NCBI GenBank assembly: GCA_963921795.1
Contig: OY997649.1
Span: 29,872,055-29,936,054 of the forward strand
Direction: 5' to 3'
From: Nannobrachium achirus
Lineage: Eukaryota; Chordata; Actinopteri; Myctophiformes; Myctophidae
DNA length: 64,000 bases
Shown here: positions 6,004 to 61,139 of the stretch, piece after piece
Layout: each line of letters begins with the position of its first letter
How positions within the stretch are numbered: position 1 is the first letter of the stretch
Position numbers and translations under genes: made by a program
The notes under the pieces: generated by a model
Databases searched by the model: none
What the model was told of the DNA's origin: nothing
What the model saw: the letters and a program-made list of their open reading frames with translations, nothing else

Positions 6004-6234
6004 TTGGGCTACGCAGCCCTCACACCTATATGTCACACCAACAATCTGATTGATATGCCCATATATGGAGATCTCTGTATCTGTCATTCCTTGTCCTTTT
6101 ATGCCTATATAGGGAGATCCCTGGTATATAATGGGCATGCTGATACTGTATGTCCATATATGGAGATATCTGTATTTGGTCAGGTTTCATTTCTCAGTGA
6201 CAGCAGCGGCCATATGAGTGTACGCATGTCACAT
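6004..6234. repeat. CCATATATGG repeat, cluster 1 (interrupted by the LTR element)
   Basis: Perfect CCATATATGG decamers at 6059 and 6154 are each followed by AGAT, within text that recurs in the clusters at 44755-46250 and 59160-60628 (for example CTTGTCCTTTTATGCC). An open frame of 83 codons here is a by-product of the repeat. The LTR element at 6235-10902 is inserted in this unit. Confidence 0.7.
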
Positions 6235-6637
6235 TGTCATGAACTGACACCATGACAAACAGGGAAACGACACACAGGTTTACATTTTAACTTATTTTAT
6301 TAATAACTAAAGAAAACAGAGATAATACTTAACATTTGAGGGCTGCTGTGAGTTGTCAGTTGTCAGTAGTGTAGGTGTGGATGTGTGAAAGTGTAGTGTA
6401 TGAGTGCAAGTGCAGAAACCATAATCAAACTAACTCAAAAGGAACCAAAACAAACACTGTTCCTTGTGGAGGGGAGAGAGGGAAAATGGCCCTGACCAGC
6501 CTGCTTATATACCCTAGGGCTGGTCCCCTCCTCCTACACATGAACAGAGAACACAATCATTAGATTCACAGACAATGGGATGGACATACTGTAGACCAAG
6601 GCCCTTAGCCTCCCAGACCAGGGGATGGGTCATCACA
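6235..6637 (-). repeat. 3' LTR of the Gmr1-type element
   Basis: This 403-bp LTR lies at the element's 3' side because the element runs on the minus strand. Read on the minus strand it contains a TATA-like GTATATAAGC and, further on, AATAAAATAAG as a likely poly(A) signal. It is nearly identical to the LTR at 10453-10902. Confidence 0.92.
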
Positions 6638-6844: not shown

Positions 6845-9800
6845 CTAAAATGCACGTGACAAGGCATCCGCAATCACATTTTCATGGCCTTTTATATGCC
6901 GAATGTCCAAACTGTAAGGCTGCAAAAACAATGCCCACCTCATCAAACGTTGATTTTGGTTTTGTAAGGAACGCAGAAAAGTAAGGGGATTGTGATCTGT
7001 GTATACCACCAGAGGACTCCCAGTGCTAATATACACATCAAAATGCTGTAATCCCCAAACTAAGGCCAAAGCCTCTTTCTCAATGACCGAATAGTTTACC
7101 TGATAGGAGTTGAATTTTTTTGAAAAAAACCCTACTGGTTTCTCAACCCCACTATCACCATCTTGTAACAAGACCGCTCCTGCCCCCACATGGCTGGCAT
7201 CTACCTGCAACACAAAACATCTGTCAAACTGAGGTGCTGCCAACACAGGTGAGGAACACAGAAGGGCCTTCACATTTTCAAAAGCCTGCTGAGCCTTATC
7301 TGCCCAGATAAACTTTACTTTAGACTTCAACAGATCAGTAAGAGGTGCCACAACTGAAGAGAAGTTCCTACAAAAACTTCTGTAGTATCCAATCATTCCC
7401 AAAAAACGCATTAACTCCTTTTTTGTCAATGGAATTGGAAATGTCTTGATTGCTTCCACTTTAGCCTCAACAGTGCGCACCAATCCCTGGCCCACCACCT
7501 TGCCTAAGTATGTAACCGTGGCTTTGGCAAATTCACACTTAGCCAAGTTTACAGTTAAACGTGCCCACACCAGCCTGTCAAACAGTGCACGCATCCTCTG
7601 AACATGGTCCTCCCACGAGTCACTAAAAATGACCACATCATCAAGATACACTGCACAACCAGACAGACCTGACACCACCAGGTTCATCAGCCGCTGAAAG
7701 GTGGCCGGAGCGTTGCGTAGACCAAATGGCATTACCTTGTAGGAAAACAGACCGGTAGGTGTTATAAAAGCACTTATCTCCTGCGCCCTAGGAGTCAGGG
7801 GGACCTGCCAGTAACCTTTAAGCAAGTCAAATTTACTCACATATTTGGCTGAACCTACTTGATCTACGCAATCTTCCATGCGTGGTAAAGGGAAGGAGTC
7901 CGGTTTGGTAATACTGTTTACCTTTCTAAAATCTGTGCACGGTCGAAAAGTGTTATCTGGTTTTTTAACCAACAGACATGGCGAAGCCCAACTAGAATTT
8001 GAAGGTTCTGCCAAATTATTATCTAGCATGTACTTAACCTCTTTATCCAGTTGCGCCTTTTTCTCAGGGGAAACACGATAAAACCGTTGTTTAATTGGCT
8101 TTGCGTCTCCAATATCAATATCGTGCTCTATCAGGTGTGTCTGTGACGGCGTGTCAGAGAACAGCACTGGGTAACCATTTACCATGGCCACCAACTCATT
8201 CCTTTTTGTCTCGTCCAAGTGCCCAAGCACCTTGGGTAAAGCTTTTAATGCCTCAGAGTTGTTTAACCGTACCTGTAACACCTGCTCATCTGCCGGCCAA
8301 TCTCCCCCCCCTTTAACCTCCCCCGCCAAAGAAGACGACACCGTGCCTACGCACAATGAAGGATCAATGTAAGGGACGTCACCGGAGCCTAGGGACCCCG
8401 GCACCCGAGCACAGTATGGTTTCAACAGGTTCACATGACACACCCTAGCTTTTCCTTTAGGCATTACAATCAAATAGTCCTGGTCAGAGACCTGCTCCTT
8501 TACTGTCAAAGGACCAGTAAAGCGTGCCTGAAATGGAGAACCCCCAATCGGCAGCAACACCATGACCTGATTGCCAGGACTGAACTGTCTGTGTTTTGCT
8601 TTACGATCAAACAAGGATTTCATTTTCTTTTGTGCTTGTGTTAGAGTACGCTTTGCCATTTGCCCCGCCATATACAGACGGTGTCTAAACCCATTCACAT
8701 ACTCTATCAAGTTTTTGGGCGGCTCAGACTGTTTGCACCCACTTTTCAAAACCGCCAATGGTCCCCGCACTGAGTGGCCAAAAACCAAATCATTAGGACT
8801 AAATCCAGTACTTTCCTGCACTACTTCTCTCGCCGCCAACAGCAGCCAAGGCAGACCCTCCTCCCAGTCTCGAGTAAGCTCTATGCAATAACCACGTAGA
8901 AGTGATTTCAAAGTTTGATGAAAGCGTTCTAGAGCTCCTTGACTTTGAGGGTGATAAGCTGATGACTGTATGTGTTTAACCTGAAGCTGCCTCATGATCT
9001 GCGCAAACATATGAGAGAGGAAATTAGATCCCTGGTCAGTTTGAATTATTCTGGGAATTCCAAACACTGAAATGAATTGAGATAAAGCCTTCAACACATT
9101 TTTTGTTGTAATAGACCGTAGCGCATAAGCTGCTGGATACCGGGTAGCCTGGCACATCAGTGTCAACAAGTATTGGCAACCAGACTTTGAGGGAGGAAGA
9201 GGCCCTACACAGTCCATAATCAAGTACTCAAATGGTTGAGCTAGAGCTGGAATAGGACACAACGGTGCTGGACTTATGGACTGGTTGGGCTTACCCGTCA
9301 ATTGACATGTGTGGCAAGACTTAATGAAAACCGACACATCCCTTTTCAAATGTGGCCAGAAAAAATGTTGCAAGATTCGACTGTATGTTTTCCTAACCCC
9401 TGTATGCCCAGCTATTCCGTCATGGGATGTTTTCAACACCAGTTCTCTAAATTCTGTTGGTACCACTATTTGCAAAATGGGTTTCCCCAGACCCATCTCT
9501 CCCTGTGCACACCATTTACGCAACAGTACATCATTTTGCACAAAATAGCCATGTGCAGCAGTGTCAATTTCTTCTTCAGGCGACACCAAATCAAATAAAG
9601 ACTTCATAGAGGCATCAGCCCTTTGTGCTTGTACCAACTCCGTAATAGAAATTGACTTAAGTGGCACAGGTATTGTCAAACTCTTTGACTCTGCCTTTTC
9701 CTGCTGAGTAACACCCTCCTTTCTACTCATAGCACGAGTCACTGCACATGCTGGAAACACCTCAGTTGGCACTTGTGGGCTTAGTTTCAATGGGACCTGA

Positions 9801-10471
9801 GTGATCACATTTGGAGGCGGGGCCTCAGCCCACACCTTATCCCCAGCCAAATCATTTCCAAGGATAATGTCAACCCCTTCAACGGGTAACTCAGGACGCA
9901 CGCCCACCACCACCTCCCCACTAACCAACGCACAGACAATGTTCACCTTATGGAGGTGTACTGGAATTACTTTCATACCCATACCTCGCATTAATATGAC
10001 ATCGCCCGTGTCTGACTCAGAGGAGAATGGAATAACATCCTCACGGATGTAAGTATGCAATGCACCTGTGTCTCTCAGGATGTTAACTTTAACTGCTTTT
10101 TTCCCCTGCAGTGACACATAACCTTCTGACAGGAATGCTGCATATTCAGGATTAGGGCCACGCCCTGTGAAACACCTGCGGTCACAACCACCTTCTGTTT
10201 TTACAATTAACTGAGATGAGGTTATGCCGGTTGCAGCCAAAGCCACAGGTTTAACTGATGCCCCACTTAACATCTTCTCTTTTGCTTTAAGAGCAAAACA
10301 ATCTTTTTTCCAATGCCCACTACGATGGCAAAAATTACAGACCTTAGGGTCCTCCTGTTTCCCTGAACTGTGTTGGGCTCGTTGGTCTAGGGGTATGATT
10401 CTCGCTTCGGTGCGAGAGGTCCCGGGTTCAGATCCCGGACGAGCCCCCATTTTGTCATGAACTGACACCAT
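6845..10471 (-). CDS. pol: Gmr1-type polyprotein part: NC, protease, integrase, RT, RNase H
   Basis: A 1208-codon open frame. Domains in order: a retroviral-type zinc knuckle CX2CX4HX4C at residues 45-58; an aspartic protease with RDTGA near residue 134; the integrase HHCC zinc finger at about 350-390 ending CHTCQ; the integrase core with D near 418 (IMDCVGP), D near 478 (QTDQGSN) and E near 514 (QGALERFHQ); a GPY/F-like module near 650; reverse transcriptase with YLDD near 940; RNase H from about 1085 to the end, with QVDAS and YTDHNPL. Integrase preceding RT is the diagnostic feature of the Gmr1 group. Residues 1-7 come from the LTR, and about residues 9-32 are the antisense of the tRNA-Pro copy read in frame, so the true protein start cannot be placed here. 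The proteins would have processed, copied and integrated the element's genome. This copy belongs to an element that is not whole. Confidence 0.92.
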   Translation of the reverse strand: MVSVHDKMGARPGSEPGTSRTEARIIPLDQRAQHSSGKQEDPKVCNFCHRSGHWKKDCFALKAKEKMLSGASVKPVALAATGITSSQLIVKTEGGCDRRCFTGRGPNPEYAAFLSEGYVSLQGKKAVKVNILRDTGALHTYIREDVIPFSSESDTGDVILMRGMGMKVIPVHLHKVNIVCALVSGEVVVGVRPELPVEGVDIILGNDLAGDKVWAEAPPPNVITQVPLKLSPQVPTEVFPACAVTRAMSRKEGVTQQEKAESKSLTIPVPLKSISITELVQAQRADASMKSLFDLVSPEEEIDTAAHGYFVQNDVLLRKWCAQGEMGLGKPILQIVVPTEFRELVLKTSHDGIAGHTGVRKTYSRILQHFFWPHLKRDVSVFIKSCHTCQLTGKPNQSISPAPLCPIPALAQPFEYLIMDCVGPLPPSKSGCQYLLTLMCQATRYPAAYALRSITTKNVLKALSQFISVFGIPRIIQTDQGSNFLSHMFAQIMRQLQVKHIQSSAYHPQSQGALERFHQTLKSLLRGYCIELTRDWEEGLPWLLLAAREVVQESTGFSPNDLVFGHSVRGPLAVLKSGCKQSEPPKNLIEYVNGFRHRLYMAGQMAKRTLTQAQKKMKSLFDRKAKHRQFSPGNQVMVLLPIGGSPFQARFTGPLTVKEQVSDQDYLIVMPKGKARVCHVNLLKPYCARVPGSLGSGDVPYIDPSLCVGTVSSSLAGEVKGGGDWPADEQVLQVRLNNSEALKALPKVLGHLDETKRNELVAMVNGYPVLFSDTPSQTHLIEHDIDIGDAKPIKQRFYRVSPEKKAQLDKEVKYMLDNNLAEPSNSSWASPCLLVKKPDNTFRPCTDFRKVNSITKPDSFPLPRMEDCVDQVGSAKYVSKFDLLKGYWQVPLTPRAQEISAFITPTGLFSYKVMPFGLRNAPATFQRLMNLVVSGLSGCAVYLDDVVIFSDSWEDHVQRMRALFDRLVWARLTVNLAKCEFAKATVTYLGKVVGQGLVRTVEAKVEAIKTFPIPLTKKELMRFLGMIGYYRSFCRNFSSVVAPLTDLLKSKVKFIWADKAQQAFENVKALLCSSPVLAAPQFDRCFVLQVDASHVGAGAVLLQDGDSGVEKPVGFFSKKFNSYQVNYSVIEKEALALVWGLQHFDVYISTGSPLVVYTDHNPLTFLRSLQNQNQRLMRWALFLQPYSLDIRHIKGHENVIADALSRAF
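10376..10449 (+). tRNA. tRNA-Pro (CGG) copy captured beside the primer-binding site; not a functional gene
   Basis: A full cloverleaf can be drawn: acceptor GGCTCGT pairs with ACGAGCC (10439-10445), then discriminator C at 10446 and an encoded CCA at 10447-10449. The T stem is CCGGG/CCCGG and the anticodon stem CTCGC/GCGAG. Compared with the standard vertebrate tRNA-Pro as recalled, only two departures are seen: the anticodon loop is TTCGGT, six bases instead of seven, and T-loop position 58 (10431) is G where all cytosolic tRNAs carry A. A 6-nt anticodon loop and G58 argue against a working gene. The encoded CCA and the place exactly next to the LTR argue for a DNA copy of the mature primer tRNA. 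Confidence 0.85.
10432..10449 (-). promoter_or_regulatory. primer-binding site for tRNA-Pro
   Basis: On the minus strand TGGGGGCTCGTCCGGGAT follows the 5' LTR after a 3-bp spacer. It is complementary to the last 18 nt of tRNA-Pro, including the CCA. The same 18-mer is the classical primer site of murine leukaemia virus. The match to tRNA-Pro continues beyond it through 10376. Confidence 0.95.
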
Positions 10472-10902
10472 GACAAACAGGGAAACGACACACAGGTTTA
10501 CATTTTAACTTATTTTATTAATAACTAAAGAAAACAGAGATAATACTTAACATTTGAGGGCTGCTGTGAGTTGTCAGTTGTCAGTAGTGTAGGTGTGGAT
10601 GTGTGAAAGTGTAGTGTATGAGTGCAAGTGCAGAAACCATAATCAAACTAACTCAAAAGGAACCAAAACAAACACTGTTCCTTGTGGAAGGGAGAGAGGG
10701 AAAATGGCCCTGACCAGCCTGCTTATATACCCTAGGGATGATTGGAGGCCAGGTGTGTCTCGTCCTCAGACACACCCCTGCAGGCTGGTCCCCTCCTCCT
10801 ACACATGAACAGAGAACACAATCATTAGATTCACAGACAATGGGATGGACATACTGTAGACCAAGGCCCTTAGCCTCCCAGACCAGGGGATGGGTCATCA
10901 CA
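10453..10902 (-). repeat. 5' LTR of the Gmr1-type element
   Basis: This 450-bp LTR matches the other LTR with about one substitution and one extra block of about 47 bp that contains the self-complementary words AGGTGTGTCT and AGACACACC. TATA-like GTATATAAGC (minus strand, 10721-10730) and a poly(A) signal are retained. CACAT follows at 10903-10907. Confidence 0.92.
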
Positions 10903-10907
10903 CACAT

Positions 10908-12520: not shown

Positions 12521-12894
12521 AACATCGATCCCGCATCACAATCGGAAACGGCGGCGTGCTAAACTAGTGCCGGTCGGGGAAAATAGATAAAAGACCATTC
12601 AATTGCATTAGTGTAACGGTGTGGCATCTACTGTACGTGGATCTCTTCCATCATGGTGGTGATCATATTGATGACGTCACTCTTGCCCAAATATGGAGGG
12701 GTGGCAGCCTGCGCACATCGGTGTTGTCAGGCAACCGGTTGTGTTTTGCGTGAGGTCAGACCAGAGCTCTGCTCAGCATGTATAAGAATGGAAGATATAT
12801 TTGTAATTTCCCACTTTATTCCAAAGAGACCAAGGAATTAAGTGTGCTAAGTGGTGAGTGAAGGAGTTAAAAAGGATAAGGAGTCCGAAAGAGG
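12521..12894. other. upstream region of the zinc-finger gene
   Basis: No repeat was recognised. If the gene at 12895 has a 5' exon, the text AAGTGGTGAGTG near 12851-12862 could serve as a splice donor. This is only a possibility; no promoter motif is clear. Confidence 0.3.
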
Positions 12895-14238
12895 ATGAAT
12901 AAATTGTCCATTACCCAACGGAACCTAAAACTCTGTCCCTATCACAATCCATGTATAGATGCAGATGTGATGATGAACCGCCACTCCAGGATGGAGTGTG
13001 GTCTGTCTCAATCGAGCCATGACGACCTCTACAGACAAATGCCCATAAATGGGCAGATCCCCTCAGAATCCCTCCAGCAAATCAACAGAATTATAACCAG
13101 CCAGGAAAAAGGCACAGATGAACCAAAATCTTACAGTCATCAAAAGTTTACCAAGACTTTAACTCAACCAGGAGAAGTAAAGACACATCAGCTGACTTAT
13201 AAGTCAGCTGGGAAGAAAACTCACATCTGTAAACAATGTGACAAGAGTTTCAGTCGCCTAAAGGAACACCAGCATGTCCACACTGGAGAAAAACCCTTTC
13301 ACTGTAAAGAGTGTGACAAGAGTTTCAGTCAGTTAAGTCACTTGAAAAGTCACCAGTATACCCACACAGGAGAAAAACCCTTTCACTGTAAACAGTGTGA
13401 CAAGAGTTTCAGTCAGTTACGTCACTTGAAAAGTCACCAGTATACCCACACAGGAGAAAAACGTTTTCTCTGTAATGAGTGTGACAAGAGTTTCAGTCAG
13501 TTAAATCACTTGAGAAGTCACCAGTATACCCACACAGGAGAAAAACCTTTCCTCTGTAAAGAGTGTGACAAGAGTTTCAGTCAGTTAAGTCACTTGAAGA
13601 GTCACCAGTATACCCACACAGGAGAAAAACCTTTTCTCTGTAATGAGTGTGACAAGAGTTTCAGTCACTCAGGTCACTTGAAAAATCACCTGCGTACCCA
13701 CACAGGAGAAAAACCTTTTCACTGTAAAGAGTGTGACAAGAGTTTCAGTAGGTTAGGTCACTTGAAAAATCACCTGCGTACCCACACAGGAGAAAAACCC
13801 TTTCGCTGTAAAGAGTGTGAGAAGAGTTTCAATCGCGTATGTTCCTTGAAGAGTCACCAGCGTATCCACACTGGAGAAAAACCTTTCTATTGTAAACAGT
13901 GTGATAAGAGTTTCAGTCTGTTAAATAACCTGAAGATTCACCAGCGTATCCACACAGGAGACAAACCTTACTATTGTAAACAGTGTGATAAGAGTTTCAG
14001 TGTGTCAACTAACCTGAAGAGTCACCTGCGTATCCACACTGGAGAAAAACCTTTCCTCTGTAGACAGTGTGACAAGAGTTTCAGTCAGCCATCTTCCTTG
14101 AAGATTCACCAGCGTAGCCACACAGGAGAGAAACCTTACTGTTGTAAACCGTGTGATAAGAGTTTCAGTGAGTTACGTCAGCTGAAAAGTCACCAGCGTA
14201 TCCACACAGGAGACAAACCTTTTCACTGTAAACAGTGA
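12895..14238 (+). CDS. C2H2 zinc-finger protein
   Basis: A 447-codon frame. Residues 1-110 carry no recognised domain and no KRAB, SCAN or BTB signature. Then comes a tandem C2H2 array with TGEKP(F/Y) linkers: 12 fingers plus the start of a thirteenth. The first finger is short, CX2CX9HX3H, lacking three residues of the usual CX2CX12HX3H helix region, so it may not fold normally. Fingers 2-5 are nearly identical (CDKSFSQL-HLKSHQYTHTGEK), which suggests recent duplication or gene conversion. The frame stops at CKQ inside finger 13, so the array looks cut at its 3' end. C2H2 arrays bind DNA in the nucleus, usually as transcription regulators. The ATG is the first in frame; a spliced 5' exon is possible. 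It could be a live lineage-specific zinc-finger gene or a recently truncated paralogue; the long frame favours recent function. Confidence 0.85.
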   Translation: MNKLSITQRNLKLCPYHNPCIDADVMMNRHSRMECGLSQSSHDDLYRQMPINGQIPSESLQQINRIITSQEKGTDEPKSYSHQKFTKTLTQPGEVKTHQLTYKSAGKKTHICKQCDKSFSRLKEHQHVHTGEKPFHCKECDKSFSQLSHLKSHQYTHTGEKPFHCKQCDKSFSQLRHLKSHQYTHTGEKRFLCNECDKSFSQLNHLRSHQYTHTGEKPFLCKECDKSFSQLSHLKSHQYTHTGEKPFLCNECDKSFSHSGHLKNHLRTHTGEKPFHCKECDKSFSRLGHLKNHLRTHTGEKPFRCKECEKSFNRVCSLKSHQRIHTGEKPFYCKQCDKSFSLLNNLKIHQRIHTGDKPYYCKQCDKSFSVSTNLKSHLRIHTGEKPFLCRQCDKSFSQPSSLKIHQRSHTGEKPYCCKPCDKSFSELRQLKSHQRIHTGDKPFHCKQ

Positions 14239-44754: not shown

Positions 44755-46250
44755 TTGCGATAGGTCGCAGTTAACTATGAGAACCGTCACATCTTGTCCG
44801 TACGTCCTTCCGATCAAACCCTGCATATCCGTGACAATGGAATGTGATGTCACAATGTGCCCATTGTGACATCCCATATATGGAGATCCCTGATGTACAG
44901 TTGTACAAAACAAAATGTTTCAGTAGAACCGCCAATCCAACCAATATTCCCATAAAAGGGGACAAGGACTGAAACAGATACTGACACGCACGGACGCATG
45001 TCTGGGGTCTCACAGCACACAGATGGTTCTACAGATAGGGATCTCCATATATGGGCATATATGGGATTGTATGTATGATGTCAGACCTATAGAACTTTCA
45101 CATAACGAGTAACCGAATAAGCATGTCTGGGGTCTCACAGCAAACGGTTGGTTCTACAGACTCCAACTTTTGCTCATGGATAGCTCCGATTTTTTCCTAT
45201 GTTCTTAGCAGCTTCCCCTGCCGTTACTGTACTTGCACAATGTACAGTTGTATGAAACAACATTTCTTTGCAGAACCGCCAATCCAGTCCATATCTCCAT
45301 ATACATGGATCTCCAATTCTCCATACTAGAACTACTAATACTAGGTCGTCTAGTCGGCGACCTGGCCAACTTGGAACAATGTAAATAGGGAATGAATGCC
45401 CCGCCCTTTAGGACCCGTTTTGACCATCTGTCTGTCGGCGTACATTTTATGTCCATATATGGAGATCACTGCAGTTATAGTTCTGGGTCCATTTTATGCA
45501 CAGATATGGAGATATCTGTCTATCTGCGTCCATGTTATGCCCATATATGGAGTATCTGTCTGTGCCTCCAACTGTGTTGCAGACACAGTGCCGGTTCCCC
45601 CTTTAATGCAAACCTCATTATACCTGTTGTCATAGGACCCGTTTTGAACATCTGTTTGCCTGTGTCCATTTATGCCCATATATGGAGATATCTGTATCTG
45701 TCTGTCTGCGTCCATTTTATGCCCATATATGGAGATCTTTGACCATCTGTTTGCCTCTGTCCATTTATGTCCATATATGGAGATATCTGTATCTGTCTGT
45801 CTGCAATCCATTTTATGCCCATATATGGGGGCATTCATTGAATGCGCGTGCCCGTGGGACGAACGGTTCTCGAGATACGCGGATTACATACATACATACA
45901 CACTCACAGAGATATTTTGTTGACTCATGTGGCGTACGTGATGTCAGAGCCTTTTATGAAGTGATGTCACAATGAGTCAGAGCTTTCGCCGATTTCCTCC
46001 GGAACAGCCTGATGTCAACAATCAACCCCGCATAAGGAGATTCCGAACGTTTCGAGGCGGTTCGGGAAAACCGCGCGTCGGGTCGGGTCGAGACCCGGCA
46101 CTGCACTCCGTGCCGCGGCGGGGAACGCGCGTGCCGAATCTGAAGCCGGTGGGACGAACGGTTCTCGAGATACGCAGATTACAGACACGCAGAGACTTCT
46201 CGCATTTATAGATAGATATGGGTATCAGGGATCTCCATATATGGGTAACT
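44755..46250. repeat. CCATATATGG repeat, cluster 2
   Basis: Nine perfect CCATATATGG decamers (44874, 45045, 45453, 45541, 45676, 45723, 45771, 45819, 46235). Four successive ones are 47-48 bp apart (45676-45828), a short tandem array whose unit contains GTCCATTTTATGCCCATATA. The left edge GCGATAGGTCGCAGTTAACT resembles the left edge of the nested element at 59843. GGGACGAACGGTTCTCGAG occurs twice (45856 and 46150). Frames of 80-116 codons translate the tandem repeat and are not genes. Confidence 0.75.
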
Positions 46251-59801: not shown

Positions 59802-61139
59802 CAAGGTTATAATAGTTTTGGATTTTTCCATTCGTTTTTATTGCGACCGTAAGGTCGCAGTTTAGTATGAAAACCTCCACCGGCCGTCCGTCGGTCACAC
59901 GTGCGGTCGACCGCACGTCACACGTGCGGTCGACGTGTGATGAGGTCACGATGAGTCATCTATGCCCAAATATAGATTTCTAGGTCAGATGGCCCATAGA
60001 GTTTGTGATGTCAAACCTAGCAACCCAATATAAACAAACCTGATGTCAGACCTGAAGTATCCTTTTATACCCATATATGGAGATACAGAGATCTCCATAT
60101 ATGGGCATATTAGAAAGCCCATATATGGGCATATACGGATGACATCAGGGATATCCATATATGGGCATAAAAGGGACAAGGGCTTACAGTTAAGAGATCT
60201 CCATATATGGGCATATCAGAAAGCCCATATATGTTCATATACTGATGACATCAGGAATATCCATATATGGGCATAAAAGGGACAAGGACTTACAGTTAAG
60301 AGATCTCCATATATGGGCATAAAGGGACAAGGACTGTTACAGTAGATATAGAGATGTCCATATATGGGCATAAATGAACAAGGACTGACAAACACTGAGA
60401 TCTCCATATAACCTATGGGAATATAAGGGACGAGGACTGTCAGCTTGTAGACCTATTTTCTAAATATTGTTGTACATTAAAAACTTGAAATGGGTCGTTC
60501 TGCATAGTACTTGGGATTTGTTGATGTAAATGTTCACATAGTGTAATAATTGGTAAAACAAACTTTTGGCCTATTTGTGGAGATAAGCGACCAACGGTCG
60601 CTTATCTCCCGATTAGGGAGTCTTACTGGTTTTTATTAGTTTTGAGGTTTTGTTTTCAATTACAGTTTAGTTTTAATTCGTTTTTAAAGTGAGGTTGCTA
60701 GTTTTGTTTCGTTTTTATTTTTTGAAAATGCTTAGTTTTAGTTTAGTTTTTATTCGTTTTAGTGTTAGTTTTAGTCTTTTACGTAATATGGGGTATTTGT
60801 CAGGGGTGAGATTAAAAAAAGCTCCGGAAAAGGTATTGTCTAATAAAGAAAATCAACAAAACATCATATTGTTGAGAGTGACAGGAATGTTGAGACATAC
60901 AACTTCTCTCTTTGACCTCACCAACTGGTGTTTTTTTTTTTTTTTTTTTCCACAAAAGACGAAAACTAAGGAGATTTTCTCTATAATTTTAGTTTATTTT
61001 AGTTCGTTTTGGAAACACAATATCGTTTCAGTTAGTTTTCGTTTTTTTAAAAAGCTTAGTTTTTATTTTTATTTCAGTTAACTAAAATGTTTTTCCATTC
61101 TAGTTTTTTAGTTAGTTTTCGTTTACTATAATAACCTTG
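59802..61139. mobile_element. MITE with CAAGGTTAT ends, split by a nested CCATATATGG element
   Basis: The left CAAGGTTATAATAGTTTTG and the right CTATAATAACCTTG are inverted. The body is rich in TTAGTTTT words near the right half. GTCAC precedes and follows the element (5 of 8 bases of a possible target duplication). A 786-bp element is inserted at 59843-60628. The 130-codon frame at 60689-61081 is low-complexity F/S-rich and not a gene. Confidence 0.65.
59843..60628. mobile_element. nested element built around CCATATATGG (cluster 3)
   Basis: Flanked by the 9-bp direct repeat GTTTTTATT at 59834-59842 and 60629-60637, which defines it as an insertion. It begins GCGACCGTAAGGTCGCAG (a small palindrome). 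Near the end it carries the perfect hairpin GAGATAAGCGACC-AAC-GGTCGCTTATCTC (60581-60609, written in two arms). Eight perfect decamers lie at 60071, 60095, 60119, 60155, 60201, 60261, 60307 and 60358, usually with GGCATA(A)AAGGGACAAGG. No transposase is seen; the superfamily is unknown. Confidence 0.65.

Follow-up and report, generated by a model that had tools for sequence, protein, structure and literature searches.

The window, that is, the whole stretch of 64,000 nucleotides analysed here (C12:29872055-29936054), carries on its minus strand an LTR retrotransposon that reads from the 5′ LTR to the 3′ LTR (Table 1). Since the two LTRs are nearly identical and CACAT stands on both outer flanks, the element was judged to be a young insertion of the kind that integrase makes. 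Its long open frame holds a zinc knuckle of the pattern CX2CX4HX4C, recognised by eye, and the domains H2C2 (348-403), rve (423-519), RT (846-1001) and RNase H (1093-1197). Integrase is located N-terminal to reverse transcriptase within one polyprotein, an order that we take as the definition of Gmr1-type Ty3 elements, and by domain order alone the window element would be assigned to this type. No SCAN domain was detected in the window frame, and one was present in all three relatives scanned; in the relative P0001, the match to the window frame starts at residue 329 and the SCAN domain lies at 209-297. The organisms named among the 120 listed relatives of the retrotransposon protein are presumably fish, most entries carrying no name.

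Between the 5′ LTR and gag, direct sequence reading and gene comparison revealed a copy of a mature tRNA-Pro (CGG-type) with a 71-nt body and CCA, which differs from the CGG gene sequence by A58G and the loss of one G from the anticodon loop, and by nothing else. Both the whole-length match down to 10376 and the two departures had been claimed in an earlier sequence-only reading and were confirmed. Consistently, ARAGORN reported a single tRNA in the window, at 10376-10449 with an unreadable anticodon, and a search of the short stretch alone with the Rfam tRNA model scored 44.2 bits at 10376-10446; with the 64-kb window as one query, Rfam reported nothing at the gathering threshold.

Table 1. 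Coordinates of the features of the window element and of related LTRs, with the evidence for each
Feature	Position	Strand	Evidence
5′ LTR	10453..10902	-	LTR comparison
3′ LTR	6235..6637	-	compared with 5′ LTR: 1 substitution and a 47-nt indel
Target duplication CACAT, left	6230..6234	.	flank reading
Target duplication CACAT, right	10903..10907	.	flank reading
1219-aa open frame: LTR end, tRNA copy, zinc knuckle, integrase, RT, RNase H	6845..10504	-	frame and domain search
Mature tRNA-Pro copy with 3′ CCA, complement of the element's coding strand	10376..10449	+	sequence, ARAGORN, Rfam
Position 58, G for A (putative m1A58 site)	10431..10431	+	A in 232 of 232 gene matches holding the position; deleted in 3 more
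6-nt anticodon loop, G35-G37 run short by one G (10409-10410)	10406..10411	+	7 nt in 235 of 235 gene matches
CCA of the window tRNA copy	10447-10449	+	follows 0 of 235 full-length gene matches
Extra nucleotide separating tRNA 5′ end from gag	10375..10375	+	absent from the tRNA and from gag of two family members
Edge of gag (nucleocapsid) sequence	10370..10374	-	1,475 nt from primer site to join missing relative to the C7 member
Primer-binding site of ordinary family members, 12 nt in common with tRNA-Pro	10438..10449	-	7 of 8 members read; 13 nt in the eighth (L052)
D-arm match regions, tRNA sense	L023 6513-6592; L024 from 4996; L025 5008-5087; L026 4926-5005		sequence match

The open frame is unbroken across the tRNA copy, probably by chance; a 7-nt loop would shift it there. 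Elsewhere in the window, a 452-codon open frame (12880-14238) runs over an 84-bp tandem array and looks C2H2 zinc finger-like by eye, and short tandem arrays of a ATGCCCATATATGGAGAT-type unit occur in either orientation at 45426-45828 and 60087-60410, and also at 6054-6178.

Ordinary primer sites and the join to gag

With the window primer site and LTR edge as query, 16 of the 30 matches extended to the primer site; the match started at query base 7 in twelve of these and at base 6 in one, and the three that started at base 1 were the window itself, C24:18424808 (L022, full tRNA) and C13:54640736 (L053, 18 nt). Eight of the 13 shorter matches were read. Seven of them (L044-L050) have in common the 12-nt tRNA match GACGAGCCCCCA, and L052 carries a tandem double primer site whose 13-nt match adjoins the LTR. 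The 18-nt primer site that had been assumed as usual is therefore not the ordinary site of this family, and the question is raised of how elements with 11-12-nt primer sites handle a plus strand that is expected to stop at 18 nt. A tandem double primer-binding site adjoining the LTR was also observed in L054 (129-159).

The window tRNA adjoins the LTR spacer on one side and meets gag after one base on the other. Read in the tRNA sense, GTGTT is followed by CGACTTCGG in gag of two family members, and by a single G and then GGCTCGTTGG in the window, indicating one added base between gag and tRNA base 1. With the C7 member as reference, the join is located 1,475 nt past the primer site, plus the added nucleotide. 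The earlier statement that the copy runs straight into nucleocapsid-coding gag was thus right about the join to gag, but not about its directness. Among the 30 primer-site/LTR-edge matches, the flanks of which were read in part, a tRNA joined to gag was found in the window copy only.

A tRNA gene should have a 7-nt anticodon loop, A58 and no encoded CCA, and the window copy departs from each of these; by reading, it also has neither a target duplication nor a tail of its own apart from the LTR, as a retropseudogene or SINE should. Instead, it is continuous with the primer site past position 58 and lies beside the 5′ LTR, as a strong-stop read-through should. Because the tRNA is placed inside the target duplication, it was absent from the site before the element arrived.

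tRNA-Pro copies beside LTRs in the genome

The genome of 1.66 Gb was searched with tRNA-Pro and its edges (best 40 of 234 candidates scored) and with two further queries (best 40 of 251 and best 40 of 188), and locus coordinates are given in tRNA sense. At least six loci carry tRNA-Pro beside an LTR in primer-site orientation, the window and five beside other LTRs, a number that is a lower bound. Two further genome queries returned the same six tRNA-plus-LTR loci and no other among the matches listed, and the 86-base query had no other 100% match among those listed (best 40 of 234). The 3′ end of the tRNA is CCA in five of the six copies and CGA in one (L023).

In L022 (C24:18424808), a single tRNA, preceded by 11 nt of other sequence, lies between inverted LTR arms; these arms and the outer duplication CTGG suggest that integration of the molecule used two U3 ends. 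L023 (C3, duplication ATGCT) contains the tRNA together with 100 nt of U5 within the element and retains its ordinary 11-nt primer site. In L025 (C5, duplication CCTCC), the tRNA is missing its first three bases. After it, in the coding sense, come 209 nt that resemble element sequence, and after these the ordinary primer site; the 209-nt stretch gave 27 matches, three of which were read and, judged by eye, look like untranslated parts of elements of this kind. In L026 (C9), a 29-nt LTR tip is joined to the tRNA 5′ end and the LTR is truncated; a target duplication was looked for there and not found.

L024 (C18) has one LTR, and a 20-nt inverted repeat made up of the LTR tip, TGG and the acceptor strand flanks its one tRNA on both sides, TGTAACAATTGGGGGCTCGT on one side and ACGAGCCCCCAATTGTTACA on the other being exact reverse complements. 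Folding of the single strand leaves its 3′ end base-paired within the acceptor stem, and such an inverted repeat is what self-priming at the acceptor stem would predict. Its duplication, GGCTA, is less secure; it came from a directed search, in which 3.5 kb were scanned for an LTR-like end followed by a 5-mer of the left flank, and the probability of a chance match in such a search is not negligible. Counting L024, five of the six chimeras are enclosed by target duplications, and acquisition of the tRNA before integration is clear for the window and three others and less sure for L024.

Two further inverted LTR pairs were left out of the count. In L057 (C7:42916900, 179-1966), a 1,788-nt inverted LTR pair, 99.3% alike, surrounds a 17-nt tRNA-Pro end, and the structure may have formed by foldback once copying had stopped immediately before m1A58; one side runs on into apparent element sequence, and the locus was described but not taken as a further case. 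In L053 (229-946), the centre of an inverted LTR pair opens with exactly 18 nt of tRNA-Pro complement. It resembles a palindrome derived from an 18-nt strong stop, but was not counted, the arms being 81% alike and one of them cut short.

Location of the changes within the tRNA copies

The control comprised 235 full-length tRNA-Pro gene matches, 179 of them ungapped, with 123 partial matches set aside; of the 71 positions compared, 61 show a departure in at least one of the full-length matches. The six tRNA bodies contain nine base changes and 1-nt indels, every one of them at position 34, 35-37 or 58. Under even placement, the chance that nine departures all fall within 5 of 72 positions is 3.8e-11, where the nine exclude the CCA change of L023, a tenth and background-like departure, and the three bases absent from L025.

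In detail, position 34 is G in two copies (L024 and L025), and T, A, C and G in 146, 64, 25 and 0 of the 235 gene matches, respectively. The G35-G37 run shows one deletion (window), one insertion (L022) and one G37T (L024); the extra base of L022 can be read as a G inserted in a UGG tRNA or as a T inserted in an IGG tRNA. Position 58 is G in the window and L025, T in L023 and L026, and A in the remaining two (L022 and L024). G34, G58 and T58 are absent from the 235 gene matches, the loop is 7 nt long in all of them and none is followed by CCA, so that the lack of G58 and of 6-nt loops in tRNA-Pro genes, which had been named as the support to be sought, was borne out for these matches. A base at 35-37 is changed in four of the 179 ungapped matches (two G37A, two G35A and no G37T).

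It might be argued that the element arrived at a site already occupied by a tRNA gene or tRNA-derived SINE, or that such a sequence was inserted later next to the LTR via an unrelated route, and the genome is indeed rich in tRNA-Pro genes, with large arrays on C14 and C3. However, this explanation is extremely improbable, considering the CCA that no gene match carries, the CACAT duplication that encloses the window tRNA, the tRNA 3′ end positioned and oriented like a U5-joined primer in six separate insertions, and the G34, G58, T58 and 6- or 8-nt loops found in none of the gene matches read.

tRNA-Pro carries m1G37, and all nine changes fall at sites that are expected to bear Watson-Crick-face modifications. 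m1A58 is present in tRNA-Pro (PMC13191261), and among zebrafish tRNA clusters m1G37 was reported in many and m1A58 in nearly all (PMC11417395). Reverse transcription of inosine gives G at I34 (PMC11417395), and A34 read as G, as may be the case in L024 and L025, is the known reading of this base. The lack of C at position 58 of the copies would fit the published signature of m1A followed by A, in which C is low (PMC4787781).

Alternatively, the copying of the tRNA could be real and its departures ordinary mutations or polymerase errors, without involvement of modification. The C75G in the CCA end of L023 is such a change, genes also vary at 35-37 in the four matches mentioned, and ordinary slippage is possible for the indels of the window and L022, which lie in a G run. 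Because of this run, the window deletion is the weaker of the two marks of the copy when taken alone; the skip at m1G37 proposed earlier stands as a deletion in the run that includes position 37, but carries less weight than the change at 58. Still, this alternative is quite improbable, as the even-placement value and the wide spread of gene departures speak against it, and the insertions are young: the LTR pairs differ by 1 substitution in 403 in the window, 2 mismatches in 882 in L025 and 5 in 848 aligned columns in L023, and the L022 arms by no mismatch and one gap in 381, L024 and L026 being without a second LTR.

Some points count against read-through of a mature, modified tRNA. A58 in L022 and L024 means that the block was absent or was passed correctly there, and L023 ends in CGA while L025 is short of the first three tRNA bases. 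Nevertheless, with marks at 34, 35-37 and 58 in five parallel insertions, the single case of the window becomes a repeated one, which supports the reverse transcription through a modified tRNA primer first read from the window.

Relation of the copied tRNA to the primer

In the families of the window, of L022 and of L023/L025, the ordinary primer sites that were read match the tRNA-Pro 3′ end, and the copied tRNA end meets the family's own pre-LTR spacer, TTT or TTAA. Both observations bear on the possibility that the tRNA was not the primer, but a free tRNA that was reverse transcribed separately, for example by self-priming, and then joined to the LTR. A copy of a non-primer tRNA-Gly joined to an LTR end beside HIV is a precedent for this (PMC12220202). 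Against it stand the matching primer sites and spacers, and the six of six copies that are tRNA-Pro, although the queries were tRNA-Pro and blind to other tRNAs; this origin is considered very improbable.

The U5 tips of the L023-L026 LTRs were observed to contain 11, 7, 11 and 9 nt, respectively, identical to the tRNA-Pro D-arm (Table 1). Matches as good were reached by 1, 351, 2 and 12 of 2000 shuffles, so that only L024 is not significant, and no such match was found in the window and L022 LTRs. The ordinary members L059-L062 have this box as well, and it was therefore not taken as a further trace of copying. It is possible that the element RNA pairs with the D-arm and so contacts the primer at a second place, by analogy with yeast Ty3, for which a D-arm contact has been described (PMC5371799).

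Discussion

Before the window element integrated, a mature tRNA had been copied, and the copy has the place and direction of a primer that was still attached to U5. On the evidence of the sequences compared, the feature is very probably an inherited plus-strand strong-stop read-through, in which a mature, modified tRNA primer was copied, followed by template switch or foldback and integration. Minus-strand DNA would have been primed at the 12-nt primer site by mature tRNA-Pro with CCA and base modifications, and the plus strand would have run from the polypurine tract through U3-R-U5 and on into the attached tRNA. Rather than stopping at m1A58, the polymerase would have placed a C opposite it, read as G58, and skipped one G in the G35-G37 run that holds m1G37; it would then have gone on to the last base at the tRNA 5′ end and added one nucleotide more. 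Such a plus-strand 3′ end would be unfit for the primer-site complement, and a strand switch to the nucleocapsid part of gag, with loss of 1,475 nt, could have completed the chimera, which would then have integrated with duplication of CACAT. In this scheme we infer the origin of the departures from modification, the order of the steps and the untemplated origin of the extra nucleotide.

For the six copies together, the predicted course comprises misincorporation past m1A58, a slip or misreading at m1G37, I34 read as G, and a 5′ end that is reached or nearly so. The outcomes after read-through would differ: a switch to gag in the window, to untranslated sequence and then the primer site in L025, insertion of a strong-stop piece in L023, and three foldback or end-joined forms in L022, L024 and L026. 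L024 is the most informative of these: the 3′ end of its DNA copy may have paired in the acceptor stem and been extended back across CCA and U5.

The genome therefore seems to record both the modification of an RNA and the failure of a step in replication. These copies probably form a germ-line archive in which I34, m1G37 and m1A58 are preserved as fixed errors that can be dated by LTR pairs, with strong-stop failure as a recurrent route to insertions and self-priming as one of its branches. Failure of the strong stop has been held to yield no useful product; if the reading is true, it is a recurrent source of new insertions. The copies would then show the m1A58 stop failing in natural retrotransposition in a vertebrate germ line, and put several sequels on view, that is, an internal template switch, a strong-stop fragment inside an element and a foldback palindrome. 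The self-priming branch, if true, would mean that acceptor-stem-primed copying of the tRNA yields LTR-tRNA-inverted-LTR molecules as substrates for integrase. Should this reading hold, the copies also reveal which bases of the primer tRNA were modified at the time of copying, and the same question can be asked of other dated insertions and species.

Comparison with known systems

The m1A58 stop is a textbook step, and most of what is known about it comes from HIV-1 studied in vitro and in cell lines. Read-through itself has already been seen in cell-free experiments and in cell lines, and copies of a tRNA have come from two laboratory infections; a search of the open literature, with few subscription papers, found no account of inherited read-through copies that bear marks of modification. 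For HIV-1, a 2026 review describes full-length read-through in vitro with transcribed tRNA (product P1), a minor product at position 37 when the tRNA is native, and plus strands that reach beyond A58 in TRMT6-mutant cells, and names as active templates the products that stop at 58, 55 and 54 only (PMC13191261). The over-extended HIV-1 plus-strand strong-stop DNA passed position 58, as did the window copy. However, P1 came from unmodified tRNA and is not listed there among the active templates (PMC13191261), whereas in the window a tRNA that was apparently modified was copied whole, integrated and inherited.

As described in PMC12220202, a tRNA-Gly with CCA adjoins an HIV provirus in a Jurkat clone with proviral deletions, so that, as in the window, a copy of a mature tRNA adjoins an LTR. 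The Jurkat case involves a non-cognate tRNA, the 3′ LTR and cultured cells, whereas the window copy involves the cognate primer and the 5′ LTR, lies inside a target duplication and has marks at putatively modified sites. The same source cites an MMLV circle with tRNA-Gly (Colicelli and Goff), in which the primer tRNA was retained and copied at the plus-strand end; this was an unintegrated circle in a mutated clone, while the fish copies are integrated and germ-line.

With Gmr1-type Ty3 retrotransposons, the window element shares the order of integrase before reverse transcriptase. It differs from them in that the leader and approximately the first 330 gag codons are missing, and the tRNA stands in their place.
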